DNA from: Rhodobacter sp. 24-YEA-8
GTDB taxonomy: Bacteria; Pseudomonadota; Alphaproteobacteria; Rhodobacterales; Rhodobacteraceae
Assembly: GCF_900105075.1 (NCBI RefSeq)
Contig: NZ_FNSK01000001.1
Coordinates: 509,001 to 573,000, forward strand
Length of the DNA stretch: 64,000 nt
Direction: 5' to 3'
The notes under the pieces are model-generated. The model was not told where the DNA came from and did not search any database. It saw only the letters and a program-made list of their open reading frames with translations. The first letter of the stretch is position 1, and each line of letters begins with the position of its first letter. Below, piece by piece: positions 9,326-46,574 of the stretch. Both the position numbers and the translations under genes were made by a program.

Positions 9326-9507
9326 CGGGCGGTCGGTGGGCGGGCGCGTGAAACTGCGGGCGTCACGCGGCGACGTGGCGGGCAGGGGCCGGTTTTCGCA
9401 TCGTTTTCAGCCTGGAAACGCAGCTTTTTCTGCCCCGCTGTGGTAACTGCGAAGAATTAAGGGCAAAATCATCCGGTGATCCTTCTGTGGCAGCCAGGGA
9501 ACAAGCT

Positions 9508-14252: not shown

Positions 14253-14446
14253 GATCCGAATTTATGGCAGCGGCAGCGAATGCCAGGATCGGGTGCGGCC
14301 GTGCCGCTTGCAAGCGTAAAGCGCCCGGGCCAAAGGGATGAGGGCAAAGCGTTGCACAGGGGCACTTATGGCGGCACTGACGGCGGTACTTCTGGCCGCA
14401 TCATGTGTCGTATGACGGGCCGGGGCAGGGCAGAAAAGGGCAGATC

Positions 14447-15790: not shown

Positions 15791-15950
15791 ATATGACGGA
15801 TGCGGCCTGTTCCGTGCCCCGAAAGCTGCAGCACTTGCGACAGGCGGCGCGGGGCTTATGGAGGGGCAATGCCCGTTGATGACGATGCCTGATTGTGACC
15901 CCGACTGATTGTGCCCGCCCCGATTGCGACCCCTGAGGAAGACCACCCAG

Positions 15951-21172: not shown

Positions 21173-22435
21173 TCATCCTGACGCGCTGGCGCCTGCCCGT
21201 TTGTGATGGCCGGTAGGGTGGATTTCCGGCAAGGCAATGATCGGGCGCAGACCAAGTTCGCGTTCCATCTGCGCTGACGTGCGGATCACCGGCCTCAGCA
21301 GATCGAGCAGGAAGGCAAGGATCAGCCCGCCGAGCAGCCCCGCAATCGCCCCCGCTGCCACGAACATCTTGCGGCGTGGGCCGTCGGGATGTTCGGGCGT
21401 GATGGCGCGGTCGAGAATGCCGAAACGTTCGCCCTGCTGGCGTTCGGCCAGCCGCACCTGAGAATCTGCTTCGGCCAGCGCATCCGACGCCTGGTCGAAA
21501 TTGCGCTGGATCTGACCAAGGTCCCGCTCGAGATCCGCGAGACCGCGTTCCGCCACGGCAACTCCCGCGAGCCCGGCTTCGATGCCGGCGGCACGGGTCT
21601 TCAGCGCCGCTTGCTGGCCCGCGATCAGCGTGGTCTGGTCATCCAGCTCGCGCAGCCGCTGCCGGTCGGTCGGGCGCAGCGTCTCACGCGTCGAGATGCG
21701 GCGGCGCTCTTCATCGACCAGCAGCAGATCACGGTCGAGCCCGCGCAGATCGGTTTCGATGGTTGTCAGTTCTTCGCGCCGCGTCGCCGATACCGGCGGC
21801 AGCATTTCGGCATTTGTGTTGCGCCAGGAGATGATCTTCGCCTCCTGCGCCTGGATCTCGGTGTTCAGAACCGCCAGCCGGTCGGAATGGAAAGTGTAGC
21901 TTTCGCGCGCCCGTGCAAGCTGGCCCGAGGCCGAGAGATCCACCACGCTTTGCGCCAGATCATTGGCGATCCGCGCAGCATTGTCGGCATCCCCGAAGGT
22001 CGTGCTGATCACCACCGCAGAGACCTGGGTCGGCTGGCCATAGGCGGGATCGCCTGAAACCTCGACCGTGTCAAAGCGGATCGCCGCGCGCAGGGCGGTC
22101 ACTTTCGCCTCGGTCGACATCGCCGGCAGGTCGCTGAACAGCTTGTGCCGTTCGATGATCGTGACCAGGTTTTGCCGCGTTGTCAGCCGATGTTGCAGCG
22201 ATTGCACCAGCTGCGCCGAGCCGGAGGCCTGATTGGCCTCGGCCGGCTGTCCGACGACCGGCACCCGGACCTGGGCGGTCTGGATCTCGATCGAGGCCCA
22301 GGCGGTATAATTGTCAGGGCGGGCTTTGGCGTAAAGCGCGGCCAGCACGACCGCGATCAGCGCGCAAAGCGCGATCAGCCAGCCGCGCCGCAGCAGAAAG
22401 CCAAGAAGATCTTCGATATTGCGCAGATGTCCCAT
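21173..22435 (-). CDS. Wzz-type polysaccharide chain-length determinant (PCP family)
   Basis: A 420-aa inner-membrane protein with two terminal membrane spans: LRRGWLIALCALIAVVLAAL near residue 20 and VAAGAIAGLLGGLILAFLLD near residue 370. A long periplasmic region lies between them, with much predicted coiled coil (ERGLADLERDLGQIQRNFDQ). This is the Wzz / polysaccharide co-polymerase layout that sets chain length in Wzx/Wzy systems. A short cytoplasmic tail ends in HHKRAGASASG. The kinase-like ATPase is encoded by the next upstream gene as a separate protein 12 bp away, as in CpsC/CpsD-type pairs. The two are transcribed together. Confidence 0.88.
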   Translation of the reverse strand: MGHLRNIEDLLGFLLRRGWLIALCALIAVVLAALYAKARPDNYTAWASIEIQTAQVRVPVVGQPAEANQASGSAQLVQSLQHRLTTRQNLVTIIERHKLFSDLPAMSTEAKVTALRAAIRFDTVEVSGDPAYGQPTQVSAVVISTTFGDADNAARIANDLAQSVVDLSASGQLARARESYTFHSDRLAVLNTEIQAQEAKIISWRNTNAEMLPPVSATRREELTTIETDLRGLDRDLLLVDEERRRISTRETLRPTDRQRLRELDDQTTLIAGQQAALKTRAAGIEAGLAGVAVAERGLADLERDLGQIQRNFDQASDALAEADSQVRLAERQQGERFGILDRAITPEHPDGPRRKMFVAAGAIAGLLGGLILAFLLDLLRPVIRTSAQMERELGLRPIIALPEIHPTGHHKRAGASASG

Positions 22436-23780: not shown

Positions 23781-24812
23781 ATGGTCATGACAGCCGACAC
23801 GCCTCATATCCCTGCGCGACGGGACCCGTCTGCCCCAGCCGGGCCGGTCGTTGATGCCGTGGTGATTGGCCGCAATGAGGGGGGCCGGCTTGCCGCCTGT
23901 CTCGCCTCGCTCAAAGGCCAGGTGCGGCGGCTGGTCTATGTCGACAGCGGCTCGACCGATGGCTCGCAGGCGCTGGCGCGGGGGGCAGGCGCGATTGTGG
24001 TCGGGCTTGACCTTTCGCGCCCCTTCACGGCGGCGCGGGCGCGCAATGCCGGTGTGCTTGCGCTGGCTGCAGCGGGCGCAGCGCCCGATTACGTCCAGTT
24101 CGTCGATGGCGATTGCGAGGTGGTGCCTGGCTGGGTGGCGCGCGGGCTGCGGGGCTTTCGCGACCACCCCGGTGCTGTGGTGATCTGTGGCCGCAGACGC
24201 GAGCGGCACCCGGAGGCTTCGGTCTATAACCGGTTCTGTGACCGCGAATGGAACACGCCTGTCGGCGAGGCGCTGGCCTGCGGCGGGGATGCGCTGATGC
24301 GGCTGAGGGATTTCCAAACGGTGGGCGGCTACCGCGAGGACCTGATCGCGGGTGAGGAGCCGGAGCTTTGCCAGCGGCTGCGCCGGGCGGGCGGGCAGAT
24401 CTGGCGGATCGACGCCGAGATGACGCTGCATGACGCAGCGATGACGCAGCTGTCGCAATGGTGGCGGCGCACGAAACGCGCGGGACATGCTTTCGCCGAA
24501 GGTGCGGCCCTGCATGGGCGCGGCCCCGACCGCCATTGGCGCCGCGAAACGGCGCGCGCTTTGGTCTGGGGCGCCTTACTGCCGGTTTTGGTAGTGCTGG
24601 CGGGGCTGACCCATCCGGCGTTCTGGCTCGCGGGTCTGATCTGGCCCTTGCAAATGCTGCGTCTCGGATTTCGCTGGCGCCATGAGGGACGCGCGGGCGC
24701 TGAGGCCGCGGTTCTGACGGTCCTGGGGAAGTTTCCTGAAGCCCTGGGCGCGCTTGGCTATCTGCGTGACAGGGTGTTGCGTCGCAGGCGTGGCCTGATC
24801 GAATACAAATAG
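23781..24812 (+). CDS. Glycosyltransferase family 2 with C-terminal membrane helix
   Basis: A GT-A transferase of about 343 aa. Starts at 23778 (GTG), 23781 (ATG) and 23787 (ATG) are all possible. The motifs are VIGRNEGGRLAACLASL, VYVDSGSTDGSQALA and the DxD in FVDGDCEVVPGW, with GGYREDLIAGEEPELCQRLR supplying the catalytic ED region. A C-terminal hydrophobic segment, LLPVLVVLAGLTHPAFWLA, suggests membrane association. It is divergent from the CpsD-like gene. Its last 237 bp are antisense to the end of the convergent TagA-type gene, an unusually long overlap. Confidence 0.88.
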   Translation: MVMTADTPHIPARRDPSAPAGPVVDAVVIGRNEGGRLAACLASLKGQVRRLVYVDSGSTDGSQALARGAGAIVVGLDLSRPFTAARARNAGVLALAAAGAAPDYVQFVDGDCEVVPGWVARGLRGFRDHPGAVVICGRRRERHPEASVYNRFCDREWNTPVGEALACGGDALMRLRDFQTVGGYREDLIAGEEPELCQRLRRAGGQIWRIDAEMTLHDAAMTQLSQWWRRTKRAGHAFAEGAALHGRGPDRHWRRETARALVWGALLPVLVVLAGLTHPAFWLAGLIWPLQMLRLGFRWRHEGRAGAEAAVLTVLGKFPEALGALGYLRDRVLRRRRGLIEYK

Positions 24813-25619
24813 ATCTTGCGACCGCAGCTGCCAAGCCTTCCTGATCTCATCCGGCAGGATCGCGAAGCAGGCGGCATAGCGCGGCAGCAGCCGGCGCGGC
24901 GAAGCCACCGCCCGCCAGGCCCATTCCAGCGCGATTTTCCGCACCCATTGCGGAGCGCGCGTCTGATCGCCCGAGAGAAATTCGACCCCGGCCCCGACGG
25001 AGGCAAAGCCCATCCGGGGCGCAAGGCTGCGGCCAAGGGCGGCAAAACGTTCCTGCTTGGGCGCGCCAAGCGCGATCAGGCACAGGCCAGGCCCAAGCGC
25101 GTCAAGGCGGGCGAGGGCGTCGCGAGCCTCCGGACCTTCGGGGTCAAACCCCATGGGCGGCGCGATCAGAAGCCCTTTCCGATAGCCGGGGAGTACCCGT
25201 GCGAGCTGCTCGCTGGCGCCTTCCAGCGCAGCTTCGGTGGCGCCCAGCATCGAGACCGGCAGACCTGCCTCCGAAGCGAGCCAGCACAGCGGCACCACCA
25301 GATCCGACCCCGGCATCAGATCGACGGGCTTTTTCGCGAGCTTCGACAGCCAGACGATCGGGTTGCCATCCGCAACCACCATATCCTGACGCGCATAGGC
25401 TTCGAGAAATGCCGGGTTTCGACGCAGTTTGACGAGATGATCAACGTTGATTGTCGCCAGCGCAAAGCCCTTGCCCCGACGCATCAGCCGTTCCACATCG
25501 TCAAGCAATGCGGTGCGGCTCGCGTGAGTCACCTCGATACAGGTCTTTTGAATGGTGAACTGCAAGGCGATCATCCTGACAGGGCGGGCTGATATCATTG
25601 TAGCGCGTGCGAGCGTCAT
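24576..25619 (-). CDS. WecG/TagA/CpsF family glycosyltransferase
   Basis: A GT26-type transferase acting on lipid-linked intermediates. The core occupies residues about 15-270: FALATINVDHLVKLRRNPAF, then VVADGNPIVWLSKL with the catalytic Asp, then PGSDLVVPL, VSMLGATEAALE, LIALGAPKQERFA and FASVGAGVEFLSG. From about residue 275 the sequence turns polar and poorly conserved in style (GFRKLPQDRQNRGLSARA), and this is the part antisense to the GT2 gene. Normal family members end near residue 245-270, so the stop may have moved. Starts at 25598 or 25574 are possible; none has a good ribosome-binding site. The function is transfer of a sugar onto the polyprenyl-linked repeat. Confidence 0.88.
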   Translation of the reverse strand: MTLARATMISARPVRMIALQFTIQKTCIEVTHASRTALLDDVERLMRRGKGFALATINVDHLVKLRRNPAFLEAYARQDMVVADGNPIVWLSKLAKKPVDLMPGSDLVVPLCWLASEAGLPVSMLGATEAALEGASEQLARVLPGYRKGLLIAPPMGFDPEGPEARDALARLDALGPGLCLIALGAPKQERFAALGRSLAPRMGFASVGAGVEFLSGDQTRAPQWVRKIALEWAWRAVASPRRLLPRYAACFAILPDEIRKAWQLRSQDLFVFDQATPATQHPVTQIAKRAQGFRKLPQDRQNRGLSARASLMAPAKSETQHLQGPDQTREPERRMGQPRQHYQNRQ

Positions 25620-25777: not shown

Positions 25778-27175
25778 ATGTCATCTACGATTGCCCTGCT
25801 GGCGCTTTTGATCTGGCCCTTTGTGGTCTGGGTTTTCTACAACCGGATGGCGCCGGGCCGGGCACTGATCTGGTCGGTTCTGACCGGCTATATGTTCTTG
25901 CCAGAGCTGGCGAAAATCGACCTTCCGATGCTGCCGGACCCCGATAAACACATGCTGCCGGCGCTGGCGGCGGCGGTGATCTCCTGGCTGATGCTGGGCA
26001 GGACCCTGCCGGTTTTCACCGGCAATATGATGGTCAGGGTTCTGGTTGCGGGTTTTCTGATCTCGCCGGTTTTTACCGCCCTTCTGAACACAGATCCGAT
26101 TTTCCTTGGCCATGGCCGCGAGATCCAGGGCATGCGAATCTATGATTCCATCGCCATCACGGGCACCGAGGCGATGTATCTTCTGCCGCTGTTCCTTGCG
26201 CGGCGCGATCTCGCGACGCCCGAGGCGATGCGCGACCTTCTGATGGCACTGACGATTGCGGCGCTGCTTTATACCGGGCCGATTCTGATCGAGACTGTGA
26301 TGTCGCCGCAGCTGCATATCTGGGTCTATGGTTATTTCCAGCACGACATGTCCCAGGCGGTGCGATTTGGCGGCTGGCGGCCCTTTGTCTTTATGCCGCA
26401 CGGGCTTTGGGTGGCGTTTTTCGTGCTCTCCTGCCTGATCGCGGCGGGGATGCTGCTCCGGCTGGGTCCGGCGCCGGCGCGGGTCTGGCAGTTGCCGGTC
26501 TTCCTTCTGACCTGTGCGCTTCTGATTATGTGCAAAAGCTTTGGTCCCATCGCCTATGCGCTGGCCGCCGCGCCGCTGGTCTTTCTTGCGACCCCGCGCC
26601 AGATCCTTGGCGTTGTCGGGCTGCTGGCGGTGGTGGTGATCCTGTATCCGCTTTTGCGCGGCGCCCATCTGGTGCCGGTTGATTATATTTCCAGCTTTGC
26701 CGGCGATCTGAGCGAGGACCGCGCCCAGAGTTTTGGTTACCGGCTGATGAATGAGGATCTGCTGCTGGCCCGCGCCGCAGAGCGGCCGCTCTTTGGCTGG
26801 GGCGGCTATGGGCGCGGTTTCCTCTATGATCCGGTGACCGGCATCGTCGAGACGGTGGCAGATGGCGCATGGATCATCCGGATCGGGGCATTCGGCTGGG
26901 TCGGCTATCTCGTGCAATTCGGGCTTTTGTGCCTGCCCTTATGGCTTCTTGCGCGCGAGGCGAGGCTGCAACCCGGATCGGTCGGCCTGCCGGCGGCGGG
27001 GGTGGCGCTGATCCTTGGGCTGAACCTTGTTGATCTTTTGCCCAATGCGACGCTGACGCCGCTGAGCTGGCTGATGGCCGGCGCGCTCCTTGGTCAGGCC
27101 GAGGCTTTGCGTGCCATGCGCGAGGCCTCACTTGCAGAAGTACGGCGAACCCAGCCGCGCCGCACCATTATCTGA
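25778..27175 (+). CDS. Polytopic membrane protein, probable Wzy-like polysaccharide polymerase
   Basis: A 465-aa protein with about ten to twelve hydrophobic spans, starting with LLALLIWPFVVWVFY. A larger hydrophilic loop (residues about 300-345) contains FAGDLSEDRAQSFGYRLMNE and FGWGGYGRGFLYDP, similar in position to the periplasmic loop of O-antigen ligase/polymerase proteins. No enzymatic motif can be assigned. In a locus with a flippase, chain-length regulator and initiating transferase but no other polymerase candidate, Wzy is the best role. It ends 253 bp before the PKS gene. Confidence 0.7.
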   Translation: MSSTIALLALLIWPFVVWVFYNRMAPGRALIWSVLTGYMFLPELAKIDLPMLPDPDKHMLPALAAAVISWLMLGRTLPVFTGNMMVRVLVAGFLISPVFTALLNTDPIFLGHGREIQGMRIYDSIAITGTEAMYLLPLFLARRDLATPEAMRDLLMALTIAALLYTGPILIETVMSPQLHIWVYGYFQHDMSQAVRFGGWRPFVFMPHGLWVAFFVLSCLIAAGMLLRLGPAPARVWQLPVFLLTCALLIMCKSFGPIAYALAAAPLVFLATPRQILGVVGLLAVVVILYPLLRGAHLVPVDYISSFAGDLSEDRAQSFGYRLMNEDLLLARAAERPLFGWGGYGRGFLYDPVTGIVETVADGAWIIRIGAFGWVGYLVQFGLLCLPLWLLAREARLQPGSVGLPAAGVALILGLNLVDLLPNATLTPLSWLMAGALLGQAEALRAMREASLAEVRRTQPRRTII

Positions 27176-27428: not shown

Positions 27429-30400
27429 GTGATGGATGATATGACGCGCAGACCCTCAGGTGTGGCCGCGACCGACATAGCGATTGTCGGCATGGCCGCG
27501 CATTTGCCGGGTGCGGGTGATATCTCCACCTTCTGGGCCAATCTGCGCGCTGGCGTGGAATCGATCCGGGTGCTGTCGCGCGACGAGCTGCTGGCCGCGG
27601 GCGAGAGCGCGTCAAAGATGGCGCGACCGAATTACGTTCCAGCCGCCGCCGTGCTGGACGGGTTCGAGACCTTCGACGCCGACTTCTTCGGCTTCTCGCC
27701 GAAAGAGGCCGCGATCCTTGATCCGCAGCACCGCCAGTTCCTCGAAGTGGCCTGGGAGGCGCTGGAAAATGCCGGCCACCCGCCAGAGAAATTCCCGGGC
27801 GCCATCGGGGTCTGGGCCGGCTGCGGCATGGGGTCGTATTTCTATTTCAACCTCTGTTCGAACCCGGATCTCGTCGAAGAGACCGGTATGTTCCTTTTGC
27901 GCCATACCGGCAATGACAAGGATTTCCTCGCCACCCGCGCGAGCCATATCCTTGATCTCAAAGGCCCTTCGGTGAATGTGCAGACCGCCTGTTCAACCTC
28001 GCTGGTGGCGATCCATTACGCCTCACAGGCGCTGTTGAACGGCGAATGCGATATGGCGCTGGCGGGCGGCGTCACCATCGAATTGCCCCATGCGCGGGGA
28101 TATCTCTTCCAGGAGGGCGAGATCCTGTCGCCCGATGGTCATTGCCATGCCTTTGACCACCGCGCGCAGGGGACGGTGTTCGGGTCGGGCGCGGGCTGTG
28201 TGGTCTTGCGCCGTGCGGTCGATGCGATCCGTGACGGCGATCATATCTGGGCGATCCTGAAGGGCACCGCGATCAACAATGACGGCGCGGCCAAGGCGGG
28301 TTATCTTGCACCATCCGTCGACGGGCAATCGGCCTGCATTGCCGAGGCCCAGGCCCTGGCGGGCGTCACCGCCGATACCGTGACCTATATCGAATGCCAT
28401 GGCACCGGGACATATCTCGGCGACCCGATCGAGGTCGCGGCGCTGACCGGGGCCTTCCGCGAGACCACGGATGCGGTCGGCCATTGCCGTATCGGCTCGG
28501 TCAAAACCAATATCGGCCATCTCGACACGGCCGCCGGGGTGGCGAGCCTGATCAAGGTCGCGCTTTCGCTGCATCACCGCGAATTGCCGCCGAGCCTTGG
28601 CTATGAGGCGCCGAACCCGTCGATTGATTTCGAGACCTCGCCGTTTCGGGTCAATGACCGGCTCACGCCCTGGCAGGCGCCGGTGCTGCGCGCGGGCGTC
28701 AACAGCCTGGGCGTCGGTGGTACCAATGCCCATGCCGTGCTGGAAGAGGCGCCCTTGCGCGCCGCATCGCAAGACAGCGACTGGCCGTTCCAGCCGCTGG
28801 TGATATCGGCGCGTTCAAAAGCCGCGCTTGAGGGCCAGGCGAGCCGGCTTGCTGCCCATCTGCGCGCGCATTCGGATCAGAAACTGGCAGATGTGGCCTG
28901 GACGCTGAAAGAGGGCCGTCGCGCCTTTGAGAAGCGCAGGGTGATCGTGGCGGAAAGCCACGCAGAGGCGGCGGACCTGCTGGAAGGCGCCAATCCGCGT
29001 CTTGTCTTCAATCATGATCATCTGGGCGAGAACCCCGAAGTCATCTTCATGTTCCCCGGCGGCGGCGCGCAATTTGCCGGCATGGCGCGCGACCTTTACG
29101 AGACCGAGCCGGTTTTCAAAGACTGGATGGATCGCGGCCTGGCGGTGCTGGAGCCGCAGTTGGATTACGATATCCGCGCGCTCTGGCTGCCCGTGAAGGG
29201 GGCTGAAGCGGCGGCGGATCAGGCGCTGAAAAAGCCCTCGGTGCAGCTGCCGCTGATTATGATCACCGAATACGCGCTGGCGAAACTTTATGAAAGCTGG
29301 GGCATCACCCCCGCCGCGCTGATCGGCCATTCGATGGGCGAAAATACCGCCGCGGCCTTGGCCGGTGTGATGTCATTCGAGGATTGCATCGGGCTGGTCC
29401 TTTTGCGCGGGCGGCTTTTTGACACGGTGGCACCGGGGGGCATGCTGTCTGTGCCGCTGCCCGAGGCAGATCTGGCGCGCTACTGGGCCGATGATCTCGA
29501 TATGGCCTCGGTCAATGCGCCGGGGCTTTGCGTGGTCTCTGGGCCTGACGCGGCGCTGGATGCGCTGGCCGCAAGGCTCGCGGCAGATGAGATCGAGACG
29601 CAGCGAATTGCGATCGATATCGCCGCACATAGCCGGATGCTCGCACCGATCCTGCCCGCCTTTGGCGATTACCTGCGCGGCATTCGTCTCTCTGCGCCGC
29701 AGATCCCGATCATTTCGAACCGCTCGGGCAAGGTGCTGACGGATGCCGAGGCGACGGACCCGGATTATTGGGTTGCGCATCTGAGGAATACCGTGAATTT
29801 CCAGGCCGGGCTGGCGGAACTGACCGCGACCCCGGGGCGGGTCTATATGGAAATGGGGCCGGGCCGTGCGCTGTCCTCGCTTGCGGGCGCCAATGGGGTC
29901 GGACCGGGCCAGGTGGTGCCGGCCTTGCGGCACCCCGAACAGAAAATCGACGATGATGCCTGGCTGGTCGGATCCATCGCGCGGCTCTGGGCCTGCGGCG
30001 TCGCGGTCGACTGGGGTCAGATCTGGGGCGGGCGTCTGCGCCAGCGCGTACCGCTGCCGGGCTATGCCTTTCAGCGCAAACCGTTTTTCATCGCGCCGGG
30101 CGAGGCGGCGCCGGTGGCGGCAGAGCTGCCCGCGCGGGTGGAAGACCTGACCGGCTGGGGCTGGAAACGGCATTGGACCCCTTCGCCTGCAGGCTTTGAC
30201 ATTGATGATCTGGGCGTGGCGGCACCGGCAAGCTGGCTGGTCTTTGCCGATGATGCAGGGCTTTGTCTGGCTGCGGCAGACCGGCTGCGCGCGGCGGGGC
30301 ATCGGGTGATCCTGGTGCATCCGGGTGACAGTTTCCGCGCCCTCGGCGAGGATCGCTACAGCCTTGCGCCCGAACGCGGGCTGGAAGGGTATGAGGCGCT

Positions 30401-33400
30401 GATCCGCGATCTGGCGGGACGGGGCATCGCGCCCGCGCAGGTGCTGCATGGCTGGCTTGTCACGAAAGACGAAAGCTTCCGGCCCGGGTCAAGTTTCGCG
30501 CAAAGGCTGATCGAACAGGGGTTCTGGTCGGCTTTGTTCCTGTTGCAGGCCATGGCGGGAGAGAACCTTGCCCAGGGGGTGAAGTTCACTTTCCTGACGA
30601 ATGGCGCGGCGGCGGCGAAAGGCACTGTGCTGCGCTGGCCGGAAAAGGCGCTGCTGCGCGGGCCGGTGCTGGTGGCGGGCAAGGAATTGCCGGGCGTTGC
30701 GCTGGCGCAGCTGGATCTGGAGCTGCCGGTATTGCGGCGCGGCGAAAGCCTGCCCGACTCGCTGAGTGATGCGGTGATCGAAGAGGCGCTGGCGCCAGAG
30801 GGTGGTGTGGCGGTCTTGCGCGGCGCGCGGCGTTACACCGAGGCGCTGCGCCCGGCGCCCTTGCCCGAGGCGGGGTTCGAACTGCCATATGGCGCGCATG
30901 TGCTGATCACCGGCGGCTTCGGCGGGATCGGGCTGACGCTGGCAGAAGACCTGATCCGGGAGCGCGGTGCGAAAGTCACGCTGATTGCGCGCTCGCGCCT
31001 GCCGGAGGGGGCTGCTCGCGCAGCCTGGCTGCGGGCCCATGCGCCAGAGGATGCGGTCTCGCGGCGGATTATGGCGGTGGAGCGGCTCGAAGCACTGGCG
31101 CGTGAAAGCGGCGGCGGGATTGCGCTGGCCCGGGCCGATGTGGCCAATCTGTTCGAGATGCAGGCGGTGGTTGAGGCTGCGATCGCGCGCATGGGGCCGG
31201 TAGATGCGGTGATCCATGCGGCGGGGATGGTGGCGGATGGGCCGATCCTCGGCAAGGATCCGGGCAGTGTGGAAGAGGTTTTCGCGCCGAAGCTGCATGG
31301 AACCGAGGTCATCGACCGGCTGTTCCCGGATGGGGCACTGAAGCTTCTGGTGCTGTTTTCCTCGACCTCGACGGTGACGGGGCCGGCGGGACAGGTCGAT
31401 TATGTGGCGGTGAATGAATATCTGAATGCCTTTGCCGAGGCGCGGGCCGGGGGGGCTACGCGTGTGGTCGCGCTGAATTGGGGGATCTGGCAGGGCGTCG
31501 GCATGGCGGCCGAGAGCCTCGCGGACCGGATGGGGCGCGAGGCGGCGCCGCCGGTGCCGGTGCGCCAGCCGATGCTGACAGCAGCCGGGTTTGATGTTGC
31601 GGGCAACCGGGTCTTTACCGGCGATCTGTCCTGTCAGCAGTGGATCTTTGATGGCCACCGCACCCGCGAGGGTCAGGCTTTGCTGCCGGGGACCGGTTAT
31701 CTGGAACTGGCGGCCGAGGCCTGGGCCCTGCAGGAAGGGGCGGTCGGGGTGCCGGGAACTGGCGCCGGGTTCGGGATCCGCGATCTGACCTTCTTTGCGG
31801 CGCTTGATCTCGCGGAAAGCGAGACGCGCCCCCTGCGGGTGCGGCTGAGCCGCAGCGAGGCAGGCTATGATTTCGAGGTGCAGACGCTGATGCGGGCGGG
31901 AGGCCGGGATGGCTGGGCCACCCATGCCACGGCGCGGCTGTTTGCGCTGACCGGGGCGCAGGCTGCGATCTCGCCGGGGATCGACCCCGGCGAGATCGCG
32001 GCGCGGCTTCGCGCGCCCGAGATGGGCCAGCCGCAGGAGGGGGAGGCAGATGGCTGGCTCTCCAGCCCGCAGGAGGCGCATCTCGCTTTTGGCCCGCGCT
32101 GGAGGGTCTTGCGTTCGCGCGCTTATGGTGCGGGGGAGGGGCTGGCGCGGCTGGCGCTGCCCGGGCGGTTCCGGCGCGAAGTGTTCGGCGGCGATCCGGT
32201 TGCGGGCGATCCGGTTACCAGTGAGCCGGCGGGGGGCTGGCTTTTGCATCCGGCGCTGCTGGATCTGGCCACCGGCTGGGCGATGGATCTGATTGCAGGC
32301 TACCAGCCGGACCGGCTCTGGGTGCCGCTGTCTTACGGATCGGTGCGGGTCTTTGCGCCCCTGAGCGCTGACCTCGTCAGCCATATCCGCAATGCAGGCG
32401 AGAACCGCGCTGACCGGCCGACCGCCGTGTTTGACATCACGCTTGCCACAACGGATGGCCGGGTGCTGGTCGAGATCACCGGCTTTACCATCCGCCGGCT
32501 GGATGCGGCTTTGTCCTTTCCGGCCCCGGATCCGCGCCTGCTGGAGGCGCCCGAGGGCGGCCCCGCTCGGGCGCTGTCACCGGCGGAAGAGCGGCTGATG
32601 ATGGCGTTCCGTCAGGGCATCCGCCCGGAAGAGGGGACCCGGGTCTTTGGTCGCGCGCTGAATGCAGGGCTGTCGCAGATCCTTGTGTCTTCGCTGGATC
32701 TGCCGGCCCTGGTGCGCCAGACTGCGGCAGTCATTGAAGCGCGCAAATCGGGGCAGAGTTTTGAACGCCCCGATCTCGACACGGATTACATCGCGCCGCG
32801 GGATGATATCGAGCGCAGCCTGACCGGCTTCTGGCAGGATCTGCTCGGGGTTTCGCAGGTGGGGGTCGAGGATAATTTCTTCGACCTCGGCGGGCACAGC
32901 CTGATCGCGGTCCGGCTTTTCGCGATGGTGAAAAAGACCTGGGCGGTCGACTTCCCGATCTCGGTGCTTTTTGAGGCGCCGACAGTGGCGGCCTGTGCGG
33001 GCCTGATCCGCGAGGCGGCGGGGATCACCGGTGAGAGCCTCGTTGCACCCGGGGGCGCGGGTGCAGACCCGGTGCCGGTGGCAAAGGCCGTGAAACAGTC
33101 GCGCCGCTTTACCCATCTGGTGCCGATGACGCCCGGGGCAGGGAAATCCGGCGCATCGCAAGGGGCGAAGACACCCTTCTTCCTCGTCTCGGGCATGTTC
33201 GGCAATGTGCTGAACCTGCGCCATCTGGCGCAGCTGGAAGGGCGGGACCGGCCGTTTTACGGCCTCCAGGCCCGCGGGCTTTACGGCGAGGATCGGCCGC
33301 ATGATGATTTCACCGAAGCCGCGCGCGATTACATCGCCGAGATCCGCCAGGTGCAGCCTTCGGGCCCTTACCTGCTGGGCGGTTTCTCGGGCGGCGGGCT

Positions 33401-33962
33401 GATCGCCTGGGAAATGGCGCGCCAGCTGGAGGCTGAGGGGGAAGAGGTGGCGCAGCTTGTGCTCCTGGATACGCCTTTGCCGATGCGACCCGGCCTCAGC
33501 CGCCGCGACAAGGCGCTGATCAAGCTCGCAGAGCTGCGGCGCAAAGGGCCGGGCTATCTGGCGGAATGGGCGAGAAACCGGCGCGACTGGGAGCGGCGCA
33601 AACGCGCCGGCGCCCCGGTCGGGGAAGAGGGCTTCCATAACAGCGCCATTGAAGCGGCGTTCCGCGCCGCGCTGCCGCGCTATCAGATGCGCCCGCGCCA
33701 AGGCGCGACGGTGCTGTTCCGGCCAGCCCTCGATCGTCATTGGCAGGTCACGGGCGGGAGATGGGTCTCGGCGGCGAAGGAATTTGTTTATGATGATAAT
33801 GACCTGACCCGCTTCGCCCCGAAGCTGCGGGTGATCGAAGTGCCCGGTGATCATGATTCGATGGTGCTGGAGCCGAATGTACGGGTGCTGGCGGCGGCGC
33901 TGAAGGCGCTGCTGGCCGAGGCTGAGGCGCAGGACGACACAGTGGCAACGGCGGCGGAATAG
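27429..33962 (+). CDS. Type I polyketide synthase, KS-AT-KR-DH-ACP-TE
   Basis: A 2177-aa single-module synthase (numbering from the GTG at 27429; ATG at 27432 or 27441 is possible). KS spans about 15-445, with the active Cys188 in VQTACSTSLV and the two His motifs ECHGTGTYLGDP and KTNIGHLDTAAG. AT is about 535-830, with Ser635 in GHSMGEN; the specificity motif reads IAAHS, neither the malonyl HAFH nor the methylmalonyl YASH form. A structural KR subdomain covers about 905-1150. The catalytic KR has the NADPH loop ITGGFGGIG and Tyr1325. A DH follows, with His1410 in HRTREGQALLP and Asp1612 in HPALLDLA. ACP Ser1824 is in LGGHSLIA, and TE Ser1987 is in GGFSGGG. KR before DH is unusual. No ER. 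It is followed 3 bp later by a GT2 gene and then the NRPS. Confidence 0.93.
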   Translation: MMDDMTRRPSGVAATDIAIVGMAAHLPGAGDISTFWANLRAGVESIRVLSRDELLAAGESASKMARPNYVPAAAVLDGFETFDADFFGFSPKEAAILDPQHRQFLEVAWEALENAGHPPEKFPGAIGVWAGCGMGSYFYFNLCSNPDLVEETGMFLLRHTGNDKDFLATRASHILDLKGPSVNVQTACSTSLVAIHYASQALLNGECDMALAGGVTIELPHARGYLFQEGEILSPDGHCHAFDHRAQGTVFGSGAGCVVLRRAVDAIRDGDHIWAILKGTAINNDGAAKAGYLAPSVDGQSACIAEAQALAGVTADTVTYIECHGTGTYLGDPIEVAALTGAFRETTDAVGHCRIGSVKTNIGHLDTAAGVASLIKVALSLHHRELPPSLGYEAPNPSIDFETSPFRVNDRLTPWQAPVLRAGVNSLGVGGTNAHAVLEEAPLRAASQDSDWPFQPLVISARSKAALEGQASRLAAHLRAHSDQKLADVAWTLKEGRRAFEKRRVIVAESHAEAADLLEGANPRLVFNHDHLGENPEVIFMFPGGGAQFAGMARDLYETEPVFKDWMDRGLAVLEPQLDYDIRALWLPVKGAEAAADQALKKPSVQLPLIMITEYALAKLYESWGITPAALIGHSMGENTAAALAGVMSFEDCIGLVLLRGRLFDTVAPGGMLSVPLPEADLARYWADDLDMASVNAPGLCVVSGPDAALDALAARLAADEIETQRIAIDIAAHSRMLAPILPAFGDYLRGIRLSAPQIPIISNRSGKVLTDAEATDPDYWVAHLRNTVNFQAGLAELTATPGRVYMEMGPGRALSSLAGANGVGPGQVVPALRHPEQKIDDDAWLVGSIARLWACGVAVDWGQIWGGRLRQRVPLPGYAFQRKPFFIAPGEAAPVAAELPARVEDLTGWGWKRHWTPSPAGFDIDDLGVAAPASWLVFADDAGLCLAAADRLRAAGHRVILVHPGDSFRALGEDRYSLAPERGLEGYEALIRDLAGRGIAPAQVLHGWLVTKDESFRPGSSFAQRLIEQGFWSALFLLQAMAGENLAQGVKFTFLTNGAAAAKGTVLRWPEKALLRGPVLVAGKELPGVALAQLDLELPVLRRGESLPDSLSDAVIEEALAPEGGVAVLRGARRYTEALRPAPLPEAGFELPYGAHVLITGGFGGIGLTLAEDLIRERGAKVTLIARSRLPEGAARAAWLRAHAPEDAVSRRIMAVERLEALARESGGGIALARADVANLFEMQAVVEAAIARMGPVDAVIHAAGMVADGPILGKDPGSVEEVFAPKLHGTEVIDRLFPDGALKLLVLFSSTSTVTGPAGQVDYVAVNEYLNAFAEARAGGATRVVALNWGIWQGVGMAAESLADRMGREAAPPVPVRQPMLTAAGFDVAGNRVFTGDLSCQQWIFDGHRTREGQALLPGTGYLELAAEAWALQEGAVGVPGTGAGFGIRDLTFFAALDLAESETRPLRVRLSRSEAGYDFEVQTLMRAGGRDGWATHATARLFALTGAQAAISPGIDPGEIAARLRAPEMGQPQEGEADGWLSSPQEAHLAFGPRWRVLRSRAYGAGEGLARLALPGRFRREVFGGDPVAGDPVTSEPAGGWLLHPALLDLATGWAMDLIAGYQPDRLWVPLSYGSVRVFAPLSADLVSHIRNAGENRADRPTAVFDITLATTDGRVLVEITGFTIRRLDAALSFPAPDPRLLEAPEGGPARALSPAEERLMMAFRQGIRPEEGTRVFGRALNAGLSQILVSSLDLPALVRQTAAVIEARKSGQSFERPDLDTDYIAPRDDIERSLTGFWQDLLGVSQVGVEDNFFDLGGHSLIAVRLFAMVKKTWAVDFPISVLFEAPTVAACAGLIREAAGITGESLVAPGGAGADPVPVAKAVKQSRRFTHLVPMTPGAGKSGASQGAKTPFFLVSGMFGNVLNLRHLAQLEGRDRPFYGLQARGLYGEDRPHDDFTEAARDYIAEIRQVQPSGPYLLGGFSGGGLIAWEMARQLEAEGEEVAQLVLLDTPLPMRPGLSRRDKALIKLAELRRKGPGYLAEWARNRRDWERRKRAGAPVGEEGFHNSAIEAAFRAALPRYQMRPRQGATVLFRPALDRHWQVTGGRWVSAAKEFVYDDNDLTRFAPKLRVIEVPGDHDSMVLEPNVRVLAAALKALLAEAEAQDDTVATAAE

Positions 33963-33965
33963 GCG

Positions 33966-34976
33966 ATGGCAACGGTTCTCACCATCATTCTCAACTGGCG
34001 CTCGCCGGAGATGACGCTGCGCTCGGTCGAGGCCGCGCTGGTCGCGATGCGGGGGATCCCGGGCGCAATCACCATCATCGATAACGATTCCGGTGACGGA
34101 TCTTTCGAGATCATGCAGGCAGGGGTTGCGGAGCGCGGCTGGGACCGTGCGGAAACCCCGGTCCGGGTGTTGCAATCGGGGCGGAATGGCGGCTTTGGCG
34201 CCGGGAATAATGTTGGTATCCGGGCGGGTCTGCCGGATGGATTTGCGGGCGGGTCACGACCGGATTACGCCTATGTGCTGAATTCGGACGCCTTTCCGGC
34301 GCCGGATGCGATCCGGGTGCTGCTGGATCATCTGGAACGAACACCTGCAACTGGCTTTGCCGGCAGCTATATTCACGGCGAAGACGGCACGCCGCATCAC
34401 ACCGCCTTTCGCTATCCGACCGCGCTGAATGATTTCGAGCGTCATATCCGGCTGGGGGTGGTTTCGCGGACGATGAAGGACAGCATGGTCGCGATGCCGC
34501 TGCCGGATCGGGTGACGCGGGTCGACTGGCTGGCGGGGGCCAGCCTGATGATGCGGATGGATGTGCTGGACCGGATCGGTCTCTTTGATGAGCGGTTTTT
34601 TCTCTATTACGAAGAAACCGATCTTTGCCTGCGCGCTGCCCGGGCCGGTTTCCCGACCGATTATGTGCCCGAAAGCCGGGTGGCGCATATCGGTTCGGTC
34701 TCGACCGGGATGGGGAAATGGCAGCGCATTCCCGGTTTCTGGCTGGATTCGCGGTTGCATTATTTCGCCAAGAACCACGGGCGCGCCTATGCGGCGGCGG
34801 CGACGGTTCTGGCAGCCCTTGGTGGCGCAATCTGGCGGGCGCGGCTTCTGGTGCAGCGCAAGCGCGACCGCATCGATCCGCCACATTACCTCCGCGATTT
34901 GATTCTACATGATATTCGTCGTGGCTTTGGCATGAGCCCGGAGCCCGTGACCGACCATTCCCGGAAAGAGACCTGA
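33966..34976 (+). CDS. Rhamnosyltransferase-like glycosyltransferase family 2
   Basis: A 336-aa GT2 enzyme. The motifs are VLTIILNWRSPEMTLRSVEA, IIDNDSGDGSFEI, GRNGGFGAGNNVGI and the metal site LNSDAFPAPDA. VDWLAGASLMMRMDVLDRIG and DERFFLYYEETDLCLRA are the typical second half of rhamnosyltransferase-type GT2 proteins. It lies 3 bp after the PKS stop and 3 bp before the NRPS start, so it is co-transcribed and probably acts on their product. With a complete dTDP-L-rhamnose operon 15 kb upstream, rhamnose is a sensible guess for the donor. The C-terminal basic region (LLVQRKRDRIDPPHYLRDL) may contact the membrane. Confidence 0.85.
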   Translation: MATVLTIILNWRSPEMTLRSVEAALVAMRGIPGAITIIDNDSGDGSFEIMQAGVAERGWDRAETPVRVLQSGRNGGFGAGNNVGIRAGLPDGFAGGSRPDYAYVLNSDAFPAPDAIRVLLDHLERTPATGFAGSYIHGEDGTPHHTAFRYPTALNDFERHIRLGVVSRTMKDSMVAMPLPDRVTRVDWLAGASLMMRMDVLDRIGLFDERFFLYYEETDLCLRAARAGFPTDYVPESRVAHIGSVSTGMGKWQRIPGFWLDSRLHYFAKNHGRAYAAAATVLAALGGAIWRARLLVQRKRDRIDPPHYLRDLILHDIRRGFGMSPEPVTDHSRKET

Positions 34977-34979
34977 GAT

Positions 34980-37900
34980 ATGAGCCTGACCGCCATTCTG
35001 ATCGGCAATGAGACGCTGACGCGCGAATGTGGCGCGCTCTGGCTGGCGCGCGGGCATCGGATCGTCGCGGTGGTCAGTGAGGCGGGGCAGGTCAGGGACT
35101 GGGCGCTGGGGGCGGGGCTGATGCTTTGCGATCCGGAAGATTTACCGGAGGCGGAGTGGATCCTGTCGGTCGCCAATCTGCGGCTGCTGGGGCCCGGGGT
35201 GCTGGGACGGGCGTCAGCGGGTGCGGTGAATTTCCATGACGGACCCTTGCCCGATCATGCCGGGCTGAATGCGCCGGTCTGGGCGATCCTCGCGGGTGAG
35301 GCGCGGCATGGCGTGACCTGGCATATGATCGAGGGTGGCATCGATCAGGGTCGCATCTTTGCGGAGCGCCGCTTTGACCTCGACACCGATGAAACGGCGC
35401 TGACGCTGAACACGCGCTGTTTCGAGGAAGGGCTCGACAGTTTCCCCGAGGTGATGGCGGCGCTGGAAAGCGGTGCGGAGCCGCGTGCGCAAGCGGCGGG
35501 GGGCGGCGTGATGCATCGCGGCGCGGATCGGCCGGCGGCGATGGGGCGGATCGATTTTGCGCGGCCTGCGACCGAGGTGGTGCGTCTGGTCCGTGGCCTT
35601 GATCACGGGCGCTACTGGAATCCGCTGACAACGGCAAAAATTGACACCGGGTCTGAGGTGCTGAATGTCGGTTCGGCCGGACTGGCAGCGGGGGGGGGCG
35701 CGCCGGGCGCGGTGCTGCATGCCGGGCCGGAGGGGCTGGTGGTGGCCTGCGGTGAGGGGGCGGTGCGGCTTGACCGGCTGAGCTGCCAGGGCTCGGGCCG
35801 GGCGGTGGCGGCAGATGTGGTGAAAGCGGCTTCCCTGCCGCTCCTCGCTGCGACGGAGGCGGAGGTGCTGACGGCGGAGCTTGCAGCGGTTGCGCCGCAG
35901 GAGGCGCGGCTCCGGGCGGCGCTTCTGGCGCTGCATCCGGTGGCGCTGCCGGTGGTGTCGTCTATGGTGTTGCGGGCAGAACAAGGCGGCGCGGCTGAGT
36001 GGCACCGGATCCCGTTCGGGCGCCGGCACGGTCTGGGGGAACTTGCGCTGGCCGGCCTCCGCGCGACCGGAACCACCGCCGGCGATTTCGCGAGGGCGGC
36101 TAAGGGCCGCGCCGGATATATCGCGGCCTGGGAGCCTTTGCGCGCGGGTGGCGGGGCCGCCGGTGAGACGGTGACGGCGGCGCTGGCCTCGGTCGAGGCG
36201 GCTCTGGCGCGACCGGCGACCGGCTGGCCGCTGGATCTGATGGCGCGGGATGCGGCGCTCCTGGGCGTGGCGGTGCCACCGGTCGCATTGTCTGAGGCAG
36301 AGCCGGTTCCGGGGGCGGGGCTGGTGCTGACGCCGGAGGCGGTGCTCTGGAATGCGGCGCGGCTGGATGAGGCGGCGGCACAGGCGCTGGCTTTGCGGAT
36401 CGACTGGCTGGCGGGTGAGGTTACGCGGGTGGTTGCCGCAGCCGCAGATCTGCGTCTTGCGGATCTGCCGGCGCTGACGCCTGCGGAATATGACCTTGTG
36501 ATCAAGGACTTCAACCAGACGGCGGTAGACCATGACCGCGCGATCCTGGTTCATACTGCCTTTGAGGCGCAGGTGGCGCGGACACCCGATGCACCGGCGC
36601 TGGCCTTTGAGGGCGAGGAGTTCAGCTATGCCGCGCTGAATGCGCGGGCCAATCGGGCGGCGCATGTGTTGCGCGAGATGGGGGTCGGGCCGGGCGTGCT
36701 GGTCGGGCTGTCTGCCCGGCGCAGCGTCGATCTGGTGGCCGGCGCGCTTGCGATCCTGAAGGCGGGTGGCGCCTATGTGCCGATGGATCCGGCCTATCCG
36801 GCCGAGCGCCTGGCTTTGTTCGCGGAAGACAGCGGTGCCCCGGTGATCGTGACGCAATCGGATCTGGCGGCAGGTCTGCCCGCAGGGGTGGAGAAGCTGG
36901 TGCTGGACCAGGACCCGCGCCTTGCCCTGGCCCCCGAAACCAATCCGGAGAGCGGCGCGCGGCCCGAAGATGTCGCCTATATGATCTATACCTCGGGTTC
37001 GACGGGGCGGCCCAAAGGGGTGCAGGTCGAACACAGGAATGTTGCGAATTTCTTCACCGGCATGGATCAGCGGATCGGGCCTGAGCCTGGGGTCTGGCTC
37101 GCGGTGACCTCGCTGTCTTTCGACATCTCGGTGCTCGAGCTGTTCTGGACACTCGCGCGCGGGTTCAAAGTGGTGATTTCCTCGGATGAGAACCGGGCGC
37201 TTGTGTCGGGCGCGCCGATCACCTCGGTAAGGGCGATGGATTTCTCGCTGTATTACTGGGGCAATGATGACGGGCCGGGGCCGAAGAAATACCAGCTTTT
37301 GCTGGATGGCGCGCGTTTTGCCGATCAGCATGGGTTCTGCGCCGTCTGGACGCCGGAGCGGCATTTCCACGCCTTTGGTGGCCCCTATCCGAACCCGAGC
37401 GTGACCGGCGCCGCGGTGGCGGCGGTGACCACGAATATCGGGGTCAGGGCGGGGTCGGTGGTGGCGCCGCTGCATCATCCCGCCCGGATCGCCGAGGAAT
37501 GGGCGGTGATCGACAATCTGACCGCAGGGCGGGCGGGGCTCGCCTTTGCATCGGGCTGGCACCCGGATGATTTCGTGCTGCGCCCGGAAAATGCGCCGCC
37601 GAAAAACAAGGCGGCGATGTTCCAGGCGATCAGGGATGTGCGGGCGCTGTGGCGCGGCGAGGGTGTGGATTTCCCCAAAGCGGATGGTACGACTTTTACG
37701 GTAAAGACCCAGCCGCGACCGGTGTCTGCAGAGCTGCCGGTCTGGGTGACGACCGCCGGCAACCCGGAAACCTGGGCCGAGGCGGGCCGCGCCGGGGCCA
37801 ATGTGCTGACCCATCTTCTGGGCCAGTCGATTTCCGAAGTTGCGGAAAAGATTGCCCTTTACCATGGCGCGCTGCGCGAGGCCGGCCATGATCCGGCCGA

Positions 37901-39698
37901 TTTCACCGTCACGCTGATGCTGCATTCCTATATCGCGGCCACGCGGGAGGAGGCGCGGGCTGTCGCCGAAGCGCCGATGAAATCCTATCTCGCCTCGGCG
38001 GCGGCGTTGGTGAAGCAATATGCCTGGGCCTTCCCGGCCTTCAAGAAACCTGCGGGCGCGGCCAATCCTATGGATATTGACCTCGCGGCTTTGTCGGCAG
38101 AGGAGAATGAGGCGATCCTCGATTTCGCTTTCCAGCGCTATTTCGACGAGTCGGGCCTGTTCGGCACGGTCGGGGATGCGCTGGACCGGGTGGAGGCGCT
38201 GAAGGCGATTGGCGTGGACGAGGTGGCCTGCCTTGTCGATTACGGCATCGCGCCGGAGGTGGTGCTGGAGGGGCTGAAGCCTTTGGCAGAGGTTGTGCGG
38301 CTGGCCAATCAGGGCGGGCCGGCGCCGGATGATTTCTCGATCGCGGCGCAGATCCACCGTCATGGGGTTACGCATCTGCAATGCACGCCTTCAATGGCGC
38401 GGATGATCCTGATGGATGATGAGAGCCGCCGCGCGCTTGCGGGTGTCCGGACGATGATGGTTGGCGGTGAGGCCTTGCCGGGCGCGCTGGCGGCCGAGCT
38501 GAAAGCAGCCGGGGTGGGGCGGCTTCTGAACATGTATGGCCCGACGGAAACGACGATCTGGTCTTCGGTGGAGGAGGTTCTTGCGCCGGAGCCGGTGGTG
38601 AATATCGGGACGCCGCTTGCGAACCAGCAGCTTTACGTGCTGGACGGCGCGCGCAGGCCCGTGCCGCCAGGCGTCGAGGGTGAGCTCTGGATCGGCGGCG
38701 AGGGTGTGACCCGGGGCTATTGGCAGCGGCCTGACCTGACGGCGGAGCGCTTTGTCGAAAACCCGTTCCATCCCGGACCAGGGGCGGCGGGGCGGATGTA
38801 TCAGACCGGAGACCTCGTCCGGCTGCGCCCCGATGGGCGGGTCGATTATATCGGACGGGCCGACGCCCAGGTGAAGCTGCGCGGCTACCGGATCGAGCTG
38901 GGGGAAATCGAGGCGGTGCTTGAGGCGCAGCCGGGGGTGACCCAGGCGGTGGTGATGGTGCGGGAAGATCAGCCGGGTGATCTGCGGCTGGTGGTCTATA
39001 TCAGCGGCGCTGCGGGTGAGGCGGGACTGCGCGCGGCGCTGGCGCGGGAGCTGCCGGACCATATGAGGCCTGCGCATTATGTTGCGGTGGAACGCTTCCC
39101 GCTGACACCGAACCGCAAGGTTGACCGTAAGGCGCTGCCGGCACCGATCCGCTTCTTGCCCGACACCGGGCCAGCAGCGCCGGAGGCCCTGGCGCCTGTG
39201 GTGGCGTTTGCTGTCGCGCCGTCGCAGCCTGGCGTCGGGCGGGGCGGGGTGGGCCCCGTGACTGGCCCGGCGACTGGCCCCGCAAATGGCGCCGCAAATG
39301 GACCGGCGCTCGGCACTGAGATCGCGAAGATCTGGGCGCGGGTGCTGGGGGTGGCGCGGGTCGGGCCGAAGGACAATTTCTTCGCGCTTGGCGGCCATTC
39401 GCTTCTGGCGGTTCAGACCCATCGCGAGATTCGCGAGCGCCTGCCGCAGGTGAAGGTCTCGATCACCGATATCTTCCGCTTCCCGGTGCTCGACGCTTTG
39501 GTTGCGCATATCTCGGGCGGTGCACCGGCTGCGGTTGTGCCCGTGCGGGCGCCGGTTTTTGCGCCCGCTTCAGCCCTGGTGGCGGCTGTGGCTCCGGTTC
39601 AGGTCTCGCCTGCTCCCGTGGCGGTTGCGACCGGGCTTGACGAGGCCATGGCGCGGCGGAGGGCGATGCGGCTGGCGCGGCGGGGCATGGATGCCTGA
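34980..39698 (+). CDS. NRPS module: formyltransferase, adenylation domain with embedded flavin monooxygenase, PCP
   Basis: 1572 aa. Residues 1-170 are a formyltransferase-like domain with N84 and H86 in [12 protein letters not shown] and Asp in EGGIDQGRI, followed by an FMT C-terminal-like segment (to about 280). Residues about 290-500 have the length and end-linker of a condensation domain but no HHxxxDG motif. The adenylation domain starts near 530 ([11 protein letters not shown] about 670). It is interrupted at about 748-1100 by a luciferase-like FMN monooxygenase of the MupA/Atu3671 type ([29 protein letters not shown]), then resumes to MYGPTETT and [12 protein letters not shown]. The PCP has Ser1474 in LGGHSLLAV, followed by a 90-residue Ala/Pro/Val tail. 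Embedded oxygenases of this type oxidise the loaded aminoacyl group (known for myxothiazol-type systems). Without a working C domain it looks like a starter module. Confidence 0.9.
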
Positions 39699-40338
39699 CG
39701 CGGGCGGGACCCTGGCGGCGCGGGCGGCGGAATTGCTGCCGGCGGGGTGCTTTACCGCCTCTGCCGATCCGCGGCGCACCTGGCCGCTATGGCAGGGTGA
39801 GGAGGGCCAGGGCATGGTGCCACGGCGCCTGGCCGAGTTTTCCGCCGGGCGTCAGGCGGCACGGCTTGCGATGGGTGCGGCAGGGCTGCAGCCGGTCGCG
39901 GTTCCAAAGGCGCCGGACCGGGCGCCGGTCTGGCCTTTTGGCCTTGCGGGTTCCATCAGCCATTCTGATCTGGCCTGTATCGCGGCGGTCTCGACCGGTC
40001 TTGCGGGTCTCGGTCTGGATCTGGAACCGCTGCGCCCCCTTGACCCCGCAGTTGCGGCGCTGGTGACGGGGCCTGAGGACCGGGTCGTTGCAGACGGGGA
40101 TCCGGGGCTGCTGGTGTTCTGTGCAAAAGAGGCGGCTTACAAGGCGCAATATCCGCTGACGCGCCGGCTTTTCGGGCCGGAGATGCTGGCGGTGATGATC
40201 ACGGGCGAGGGGTTCCGGGCGCGATTTCGCGGGGCGGTTGCGCCCTTTGAGAGGGGTGCAGAGATTGAAGGGCGCATCACCCTCTGCGCCGGGCATGTGC
40301 TGGCGGTGGCCTGGATTGCAACCCGGGCCACCGCCTGA
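39691..40338 (+). CDS. 4'-phosphopantetheinyl transferase (EntD-like)
   Basis: A 215-aa enzyme that activates carrier proteins by attaching phosphopantetheine from CoA. The ATG at 39691 overlaps the NRPS stop (atgccTGA); an in-frame start at 39502 inside the NRPS would add an arginine-rich leader with no support. The family motifs are the Mg-binding GLGLDLEPL and [13 protein letters not shown] (KEAxxK), plus [14 protein letters not shown]. It is the natural activator for ACP Ser1824 of the PKS and PCP Ser1474 of the NRPS, and marks the end of that transcription unit; the next gene is convergent. Confidence 0.93.
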
Positions 40339-41386: not shown

Positions 41387-41399
41387 TTCCGCTCCGCCC

Positions 41400-44309: not shown

Positions 44310-44310
44310 C

Positions 44311-46534: not shown

Positions 46535-46574
46535 ATGCGGGCCTTTCGCTGGCCCGTTGATTTGTAAACCTTAT

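Follow-up and report, generated by a model that had tools for sequence, protein, structure and literature searches.

A conserved cluster encoding a non-ribosomal peptide synthetase (NRPS), a polyketide synthase (PKS), a glycosyltransferase (GT) and a phosphopantetheinyl transferase (PPTase) has been noted in 28 of 57 roseobacter genomes, with an uncharacterised product (PMC4337385). The same four-gene cluster is described in roseobacters with credit to Martens et al. 2007 (PMC5014874), and the PKS and NRPS genes listed for Phaeobacter inhibens may be the same pair (PMC4062626). In the accessible portions of these and the other papers searched, neither a link between this orphan cluster and polysaccharide nor a named product was found. 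Here, we describe a member of the orphan roseobacter PKS–GT–NRPS–PPTase cluster from Rhodobacter sp. 24-YEA-8, which resides in a 64,000-nucleotide stretch of DNA (genome G000, C1:509001-573000) that is termed the window throughout. A preliminary description of this DNA had not recognised the combination as a described pathway. However, the accessible text of two of these papers (PMC4337385, PMC5014874) already presents it as a roseobacter cluster without a known product.

To the known cluster we add a link to a polysaccharide system, a loading module with formyltransferase, adenylation, monooxygenase and peptidyl carrier protein domains (F-A-MOx-PCP), an SGNH-fold partner protein and a context in Hyphomicrobiales and Hydrogenophaga. 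The published descriptions, in their accessible portions, mention neither a polysaccharide locus nor this architecture, this partner or copies in those two groups. That the set and a Wzx-dependent polysaccharide constitute one system is well supported by the data below. Moreover, because the set travels with one particular polysaccharide-export machinery, the data suggest that its product is made for the surface polysaccharide. The four genes and the two partners most relevant to these conclusions are as follows.

27429..33962, + strand: type I PKS, 2177 aa, KS-AT-KR-DH-ACP-TE (Pfam)
33966..34976, + strand: generic family-2 glycosyltransferase (GT2), 336 aa (Pfam)
34980..39698, + strand: NRPS, probable loading module, 1572 aa (Pfam; TIGR04020, 474.8 bits)
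39691..40338, + strand: PPTase (Pfam; 4PPT_N 70.4 bits, ACPS 25.1 bits)
14405..15790, + strand: Wzx-type oligosaccharide flippase (Pfam Polysacc_synt_3)
9487..10467, + strand: SGNH-fold hydrolase or acyltransferase, predicted to be membrane-anchored and extracytoplasmic

All four genes of the set are open frames read in the same direction, with 3-bp gaps between PKS and GT and between GT and NRPS. The PPTase open reading frame is listed from 39502, and its likely start is the ATG at 39691, such that the last 8 bp of the NRPS gene are shared by both genes. Open reading frames and Pfam matches thus confirm the preliminary description of four co-directional genes, separated by 3 bp or overlapping, within a polysaccharide locus.

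Co-inheritance was assessed across the family with a single genome for each genus (149 genomes), of which 55 carry the NRPS (E<=1e-200) and 94 do not. At preset limits of E<=1e-60, the flippase is present in 53 of the 55 NRPS-positive genomes versus 4 of the 94 NRPS-negative genomes, and the GT in 54 versus 6. Stricter limits, chosen after the lists had been seen, yield 52/55 versus 1/94 both for the flippase (E<=1e-110; Fisher p=2.7e-35, a value that, like the other p values here, ignores shared ancestry, such that cases of co-inheritance drawn from a single family are not independent in phylogenetic terms) and for the GT (1e-130). The SGNH protein, at its preset limit of 1e-30, is found in 31/55 versus 0/94 genomes (p=2.5e-17), and thus only together with the NRPS in this sample. 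These associations do not require physical linkage. For example, the flippase and NRPS genes lie 1.5 Mb (G794) and 1.9 Mb (G177) apart on the same contig, and the SGNH and NRPS genes of G794 are separated by 0.58 Mb.

G853, the sole NRPS-negative genome in which both flippase and GT pass the strict limits, carries the whole set in apparent decay (L163): MOx is missing, the PKS is in two frames, and pairwise alignment reveals that the F-domain triad and the PCP serine are not conserved; the A-domain code is intact. Three NRPS-positive genomes have no flippase match at 1e-110, namely G899, G820 and G874. The last of these retains a weaker match (3.8e-96), and G820 has no flippase match between its GT2 gene and the PKS gene.

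Relatives of the set were collected by scanning 84,980 species genomes, which yielded at least 551 relatives among the 596 matched stretches listed, and 80 loci were kept. These named loci come from Rhodobacterales and Hydrogenophaga, plus two that are labelled otherwise (L036 and L054). The PKS is present in 79 of the 80; a GT gene immediately precedes that of the NRPS in 77, and a PPTase gene immediately follows it in 71. It is because of this conservation that the set cannot be regarded as a chance arrangement. Polysaccharide markers, detected with profiles grown from the window's genes, are present in 71 of the 73 loci with >=5 kb of flank (all but L033 and L060), and 67 of the 73 carry Wzx, Wzy, Wzz or an initiating transferase. 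The earlier proposal that the set belongs with surface-polysaccharide genes is therefore borne out, and its occurrence apart from such genes in most genomes, which had been named as grounds for rejecting the proposal, is not what these 73 loci show.

That the set lies beside polysaccharide genes by chance, or through a merely regional association, is already disfavoured by these counts, and we give this explanation almost no credence. Some copies do lie on plasmids, where unrelated genes can gather. However, the marker recurs across several bacterial orders and differing gene orders, co-occurrence persists when the genes are unlinked, and matches to the Wzz and Polysacc_synt_3 families number only two each in the window's genome. 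The plasmid copies (L158-L161) belong to Ruegeria, Parasedimentitalea, Aminobacter and Paracoccus, on plasmids of 89-367 kb. Those of Ruegeria, Parasedimentitalea and Paracoccus marcusii lie among glycosyltransferase genes. That of Aminobacter has divergent PKS and NRPS genes and is near O-antigen ligase, export, BcsQ and flippase genes. The Ruegeria plasmid copy (L158) retains the first three genes, followed by a hypothetical gene and a transposase where the PPTase is expected. On the P. marcusii plasmid pCP157_02, the formyltransferase and A-MOx portions are annotated as two overlapping genes (L161:18427-23018), and the PPTase gene lies ~9 kb off.

In wider samples, an NRPS match at the thresholds applied is found in 7 of 385 genomes of a class sample and in 16 of 398 genomes of a phylum sample (the window's own genome being counted in both), and two of the 16 (G711 and G673) cover only the A-MOx-PCP part. 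An NRPS tree of 88 rows, from which G365 was dropped, was rooted by G306 and G685. It places Hydrogenophaga as one clade (support 1.0) inside Rhodobacterales, with Aminobacter, G536 and G646 as the sister clade (0.999). The Ruegeria loci L089, L090 and L093, which carry all four genes in the window's order of PKS-GT-NRPS-PPTase, are part of the same tree. The loci labelled Curvibacter and Exiguobacterium (L036 and L054) also fall among Rhodobacterales, and are probably from mislabelled or misbinned assemblies.

PKS and NRPS genes beside polysaccharide genes also occur in Hyphomicrobiales and Hydrogenophaga, and in the latter the neighbours of the set include Wzz, WecG, a GT and an initiating transferase. 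In one Hydrogenophaga polysaccharide locus, the gene for another NRPS (L147:754-6681; one condensation domain, two A domains, two PCPs and a TE) is flanked by the set on one side and by the SGNH gene on the other. For G306, an epimerase, a GT, an aminotransferase and a UDP-sugar dehydrogenase are located nearby, with no flippase among the nine neighbours scanned.

Co-inheritance of this kind could also arise if the product were a free small metabolite, glycosylated or not, that is never attached to the polymer and is inherited with it because both serve surface life or biofilm. We regard this main rival as rather unlikely. The cluster is treated as secondary metabolism in the accessible text of two papers (PMC5014874, PMC8273931), in the second of which the P. 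marcusii cluster is entered as a hybrid of the HSR-NRPS-PKS type. The TE triad of the PKS is intact, and NRPS-PKS pairs occur without clear polysaccharide context in G365 and G685 and within a larger cluster in G899. A free metabolite is nevertheless hard to reconcile with a flippase orthologue and a GT that track the NRPS almost one to one, even when unlinked, or with an extracytoplasmic SGNH protein that is found only with the NRPS. Furthermore, no exporter family is among the 25 commonest of the 113 Pfam families in 134 flanking open reading frames, a count that a rarer exporter could escape.

The remaining genes of the polysaccharide locus in the window are listed below.

10464..12179, + strand: protein with a Tat-like signal (by eye), no Pfam match
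12173..13006, + strand: GT2 glycosyltransferase of the polysaccharide locus (Pfam)
12990..14252, - strand: GT4 glycosyltransferase of the polysaccharide locus (Pfam)
15909..19298, + strand: rmlCBDA dTDP-rhamnose operon, intact, 8.1-11.5 kb upstream of the PKS gene (Pfam)
20170..20880, + strand: initiating sugar-phosphate transferase, Bac_transf (Pfam)
21173..22435, - strand: Wzz chain-length determinant (Pfam)
24576..25619, - strand: WecG/TagA/CpsF glycosyltransferase (Pfam)
25778..27175, + strand: Wzy/O-antigen-ligase-like polymerase, weak match (Wzy_C)

The flippase, Wzz and the initiating transferase are thus all present in the window by Pfam, and these features, together with WecG and the GTs, are shared with Wzx/Wzy-dependent exopolysaccharide loci. 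What sets the window apart from the usual loci of this type is an assembly line for a non-sugar product, which is inherited together with the flippase. The Wzy-like flanking gene noted in the preliminary description does adjoin the set, as it does in many relatives, but it scores only 21.3 bits against PF04932, for which the cut-off is 31.7. The partner protein at 9487-10467 exhibits an SGNH fold in which the Ser and Asp-x-x-His motifs are present. Foldseek alone gave weak results for this protein (best E 3.1e-4, TM 0.38, with some unrelated folds), and a search of the SGNH profile against PDB entries yielded matches of E 0.036 or worse only. The protein with the Tat-like signal (10464-12179) is encoded in 18 of the 80 named loci. 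In this connection, the weaker hit of the SGNH profile to a frame of ~830-990 aa that adjoins the SGNH gene in relatives points to a fused SGNH-like domain.

The domains of the two synthases (all on the + strand; Pfam) were placed as follows.

PKS: KS ~27471-28604, AT 29043-29861, KR 30897-31493, DH (PS-DH) 31599-32510, ACP 32820-33005, TE 33243-33866
NRPS: formyltransferase 35148-35819, A 36561-37196 and 38340-39146, MOx 37242-38294, PCP 39318-39512

In an alignment of 79 PKS rows, residues C188/H324/H364 of KS, S635 of AT, Y1325/N1329 of KR, H1410/D1612 of DH, S1824 of ACP and S1987/D2014/H2142 of TE, all of which we take to be active-site residues, are kept at 92-98%. In the NRPS, N84/H86/D122 of the F domain, presumably the Asn-His-Asp triad of formyltransferases, and S1474 of the PCP are kept in 100% of 81 rows. 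Both the N and the C domain of the formyltransferase are matched by Pfam. The C-terminal tail of the NRPS is Arg-rich and conserved, and we presume that it serves as a docking element.

Neither a condensation domain nor a TE was found in the NRPS by the Pfam scan. Given this absence and the N-terminal formyltransferase, and given that the PKS ends in a TE, the NRPS probably acts as a loading module for the PKS. The NRPS gene immediately precedes the PKS gene in three genomes that lie outside the main clade (G306, G365 and G685). For example, G685 (L139:5223-18952) encodes a loading-type NRPS followed by a PKS fused to C-A-PCP-TE, which makes a three-module line. In the F domain of the G365 NRPS, the NFHDG motif is not present in its exact form. 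The aminoacyl-polyketide product proposed earlier can thereby be refined, since the NRPS resembles a formylglycine/MOx loading module upstream of the PKS.

The best match for the NRPS in the PDB is LgrA of linear gramicidin synthesis, whose F-A-PCP initiation module likewise has an N-terminal formyltransferase, an A domain and a PCP. The LgrA A domain is not known to contain a MOx. Conglobatin is built on an N-formylglycine starter. Unlike the LgrA system, the window NRPS is partnered with a PKS and lies in a polysaccharide locus. PuwE and hybrid or modular PKSs were also matched. The best KS-AT match is 8xju, and the second-best, 8xjy, has the same sequence as in 8xjz, an entry that also contains a peptide synthetase chain. 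Assignment of a known product through these matches was rejected, as they are single proteins and represent no known cluster.

The glycine modules with an inserted MOx that most resemble this NRPS are those of myxothiazol and melithiazol, which we take to be MtaG and MelG. In these modules, the MOx is located between motifs A4 and A5 and hydroxylates the alpha carbon of glycine (PMC10204066 and PMC11342130, in their accessible text). The window NRPS also carries its MOx inside the A domain, between A4 and A5 (motifs placed by eye), and this domain is a luciferase-like monooxygenase (Bac_luciferase) of the MupA/Atu3671 family (TIGR04020). Its A-domain code, read by eye as DILHMGMIWK, is exact in 60 of the 81 rows and one residue off in the other 21, one of which also has an unread X. 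All four MOX-bearing glycine A domains in the accessible part of one report share the code DILQLGMIWK (PMC12283262), which is equal at 8 of 10 residues and points to a putative glycine specificity of the window NRPS. Unlike the myxothiazol and melithiazol modules, the window NRPS has a formyltransferase in place of the condensation domain and seems to be chain-starting rather than chain-ending. It may work like these modules, but is not classed as one of them because it has no condensation domain.

A different outcome would be hydroxylation of nitrogen by the MOx, giving a metal-binding, siderophore-like N-formyl-N-hydroxy-glycine. A formyltransferase and an oxygenase do occur within one module, and ZnuA and ABC-3 metal-transport genes are near the pair in G365. 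Even so, we consider this outcome highly improbable, because the A4-A5 MOx domains of glycine A domains are reported as alpha-carbon hydroxylases in the accessible text of the papers cited above (PMC10204066, PMC11342130), and no receptor family is among the 25 commonest flank families.

From these features we infer glycine as the substrate, alpha-hydroxylation, a single extension, transfer from NRPS to PKS, attachment to the polymer and the structure of the product. In the proposed route, the PPTase would arm both carrier proteins (the NRPS PCP and the PKS ACP), the A domain would load glycine onto the PCP and the F domain would formylate it. The resulting N-formylglycyl thioester would be an N-acyl-glycyl substrate of the kind that the MOx in other such modules obtains through a condensation domain and the upstream peptide, and the inserted MOx would hydroxylate it at the alpha carbon. 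The PKS would then accept this starter, add one malonate-type unit, reduce and dehydrate it, and its TE would hand on the small acyl product. This acyl group could be placed on the repeat unit, or on one of its sugars, before flipping by Wzx, with the co-encoded GT acting on the same unit, and in many hosts the extracytoplasmic SGNH enzyme might edit or move the ester.

We hypothesized that an acyl unit, started from N-formyl-(hydroxy)glycine and extended by C2, is produced by the set for this Wzx-dependent polysaccharide. This is our best explanation of the data, and we hold the chances for and against it to be about even. The fuller proposal, an assembly line dedicated to a secreted polysaccharide that proceeds through formylglycine, alpha-hydroxylation by MOx, one PKS extension, incorporation into the repeat unit and SGNH editing outside the cell, is more tentative, and we suspect that it is somewhat likelier to fail in some step than to hold in all. 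In this proposal, the alpha-hydroxylated formylglycine perhaps loses formamide and thereby collapses into a glyoxylyl starter.

A variant in which the product serves the polysaccharide as a special primer or anchor, acyl or lipid-like in nature, would account equally for the co-inheritance of flippase and GT. Such a role has been proposed for RkpA, the PKS of the rhizobial K antigen, and a PKS with KR and DH domains could act repeatedly. However, the starter module here is of the formylglycine/MOx type rather than a fatty-acyl ligase, and no ER domain is reported in the PKS by Pfam, such that we consider a primer or anchor improbable.

Several observations weigh against an acyl unit made for the polysaccharide, in addition to the late choice of strict limits, the shared ancestry of the sampled genomes and the possible escape of a rarer exporter. 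The SGNH protein is missing from 24 of the 55 NRPS-positive genomes, and no dedicated acyltransferase was identified. Loci L036, L085 and L098 have no GT just upstream of the NRPS, and the Aminobacter plasmid copy is without a GT between PKS and NRPS. No polysaccharide genes are found among the nine (G365) and eight (G685) neighbours scanned, and the NRPS of G899 is outgroup-like and part of a larger NRPS-PKS cluster. The pairs in these three genomes therefore indicate that the core chemistry needs no polysaccharide.

If the product does serve the polysaccharide, searches of culture extracts alone would miss it, and aquatic bacteria that are widespread would prove to supply a surface polymer by assembly-line chemistry. 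The accessible text of PMC4337385 calls for the product of the four-gene cluster, and the polysaccharide link offers an answer as to where that product may go.

The intact rfbCBDA (rmlC-B-D-A) operon was correctly placed 8-11 kb upstream of the PKS gene by the preliminary description, and its suggested link to the set holds within the genus: of the same-genus genomes, all 6 with a stretch that reaches that far have rml genes close to the set. Beyond the genus the link is not supported, as 0 of 3 other-genus genomes in the same neighbourhood comparison have rml genes nearby. Two Ruegeria loci contain rml genes, and the count of 2 in the 80 named loci is an underestimate, as these stretches reach only ~4.6 kb above the PKS gene. 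Used as a control, rmlD (E<=1e-50) hardly tracks the NRPS (45/55 NRPS-positive versus 61/94 NRPS-negative genomes, p=0.039) and lies <=25 kb from it in only 4 of the 55 genomes (G000, G792, G794 and G841; contig breaks ignored). Rhamnose was therefore rejected as a general partner sugar; the rml operon is kept within the genus and is incidental to the set beyond it.

Likewise, the label of rhamnosyltransferase-like given to the GT is not upheld. The match to TIGR01556 (NCBIfam) is only 29.7 bits against a cut-off of 200.55, and thus only a generic GT2 is indicated, without rhamnosyl specificity. The GT shares 51-57% identity with its counterparts on three plasmids and with one from Hydrogenophaga, and a PDB search with this protein gave no match at E<=0.001.

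The set does encode its own PPTase, as had been taken to make it self-sufficient, but a search of the window's genome revealed another ACPS-family gene, at C1:37284, making two in all. The set's PPTase was therefore rejected as the sole carrier-protein activator. A further NRPS A domain at C1:1893301-1894941 may share the PPTase. Directly downstream of the set on the opposite strand (window 40568-47550) are FdhD and an apparent formate dehydrogenase operon, read by eye. This operon was considered as a formyl supplier and rejected. It adjoins the set in 15 of the 80 loci, all from the window's part of the NRPS tree, and this confinement indicates that its position probably reflects synteny.

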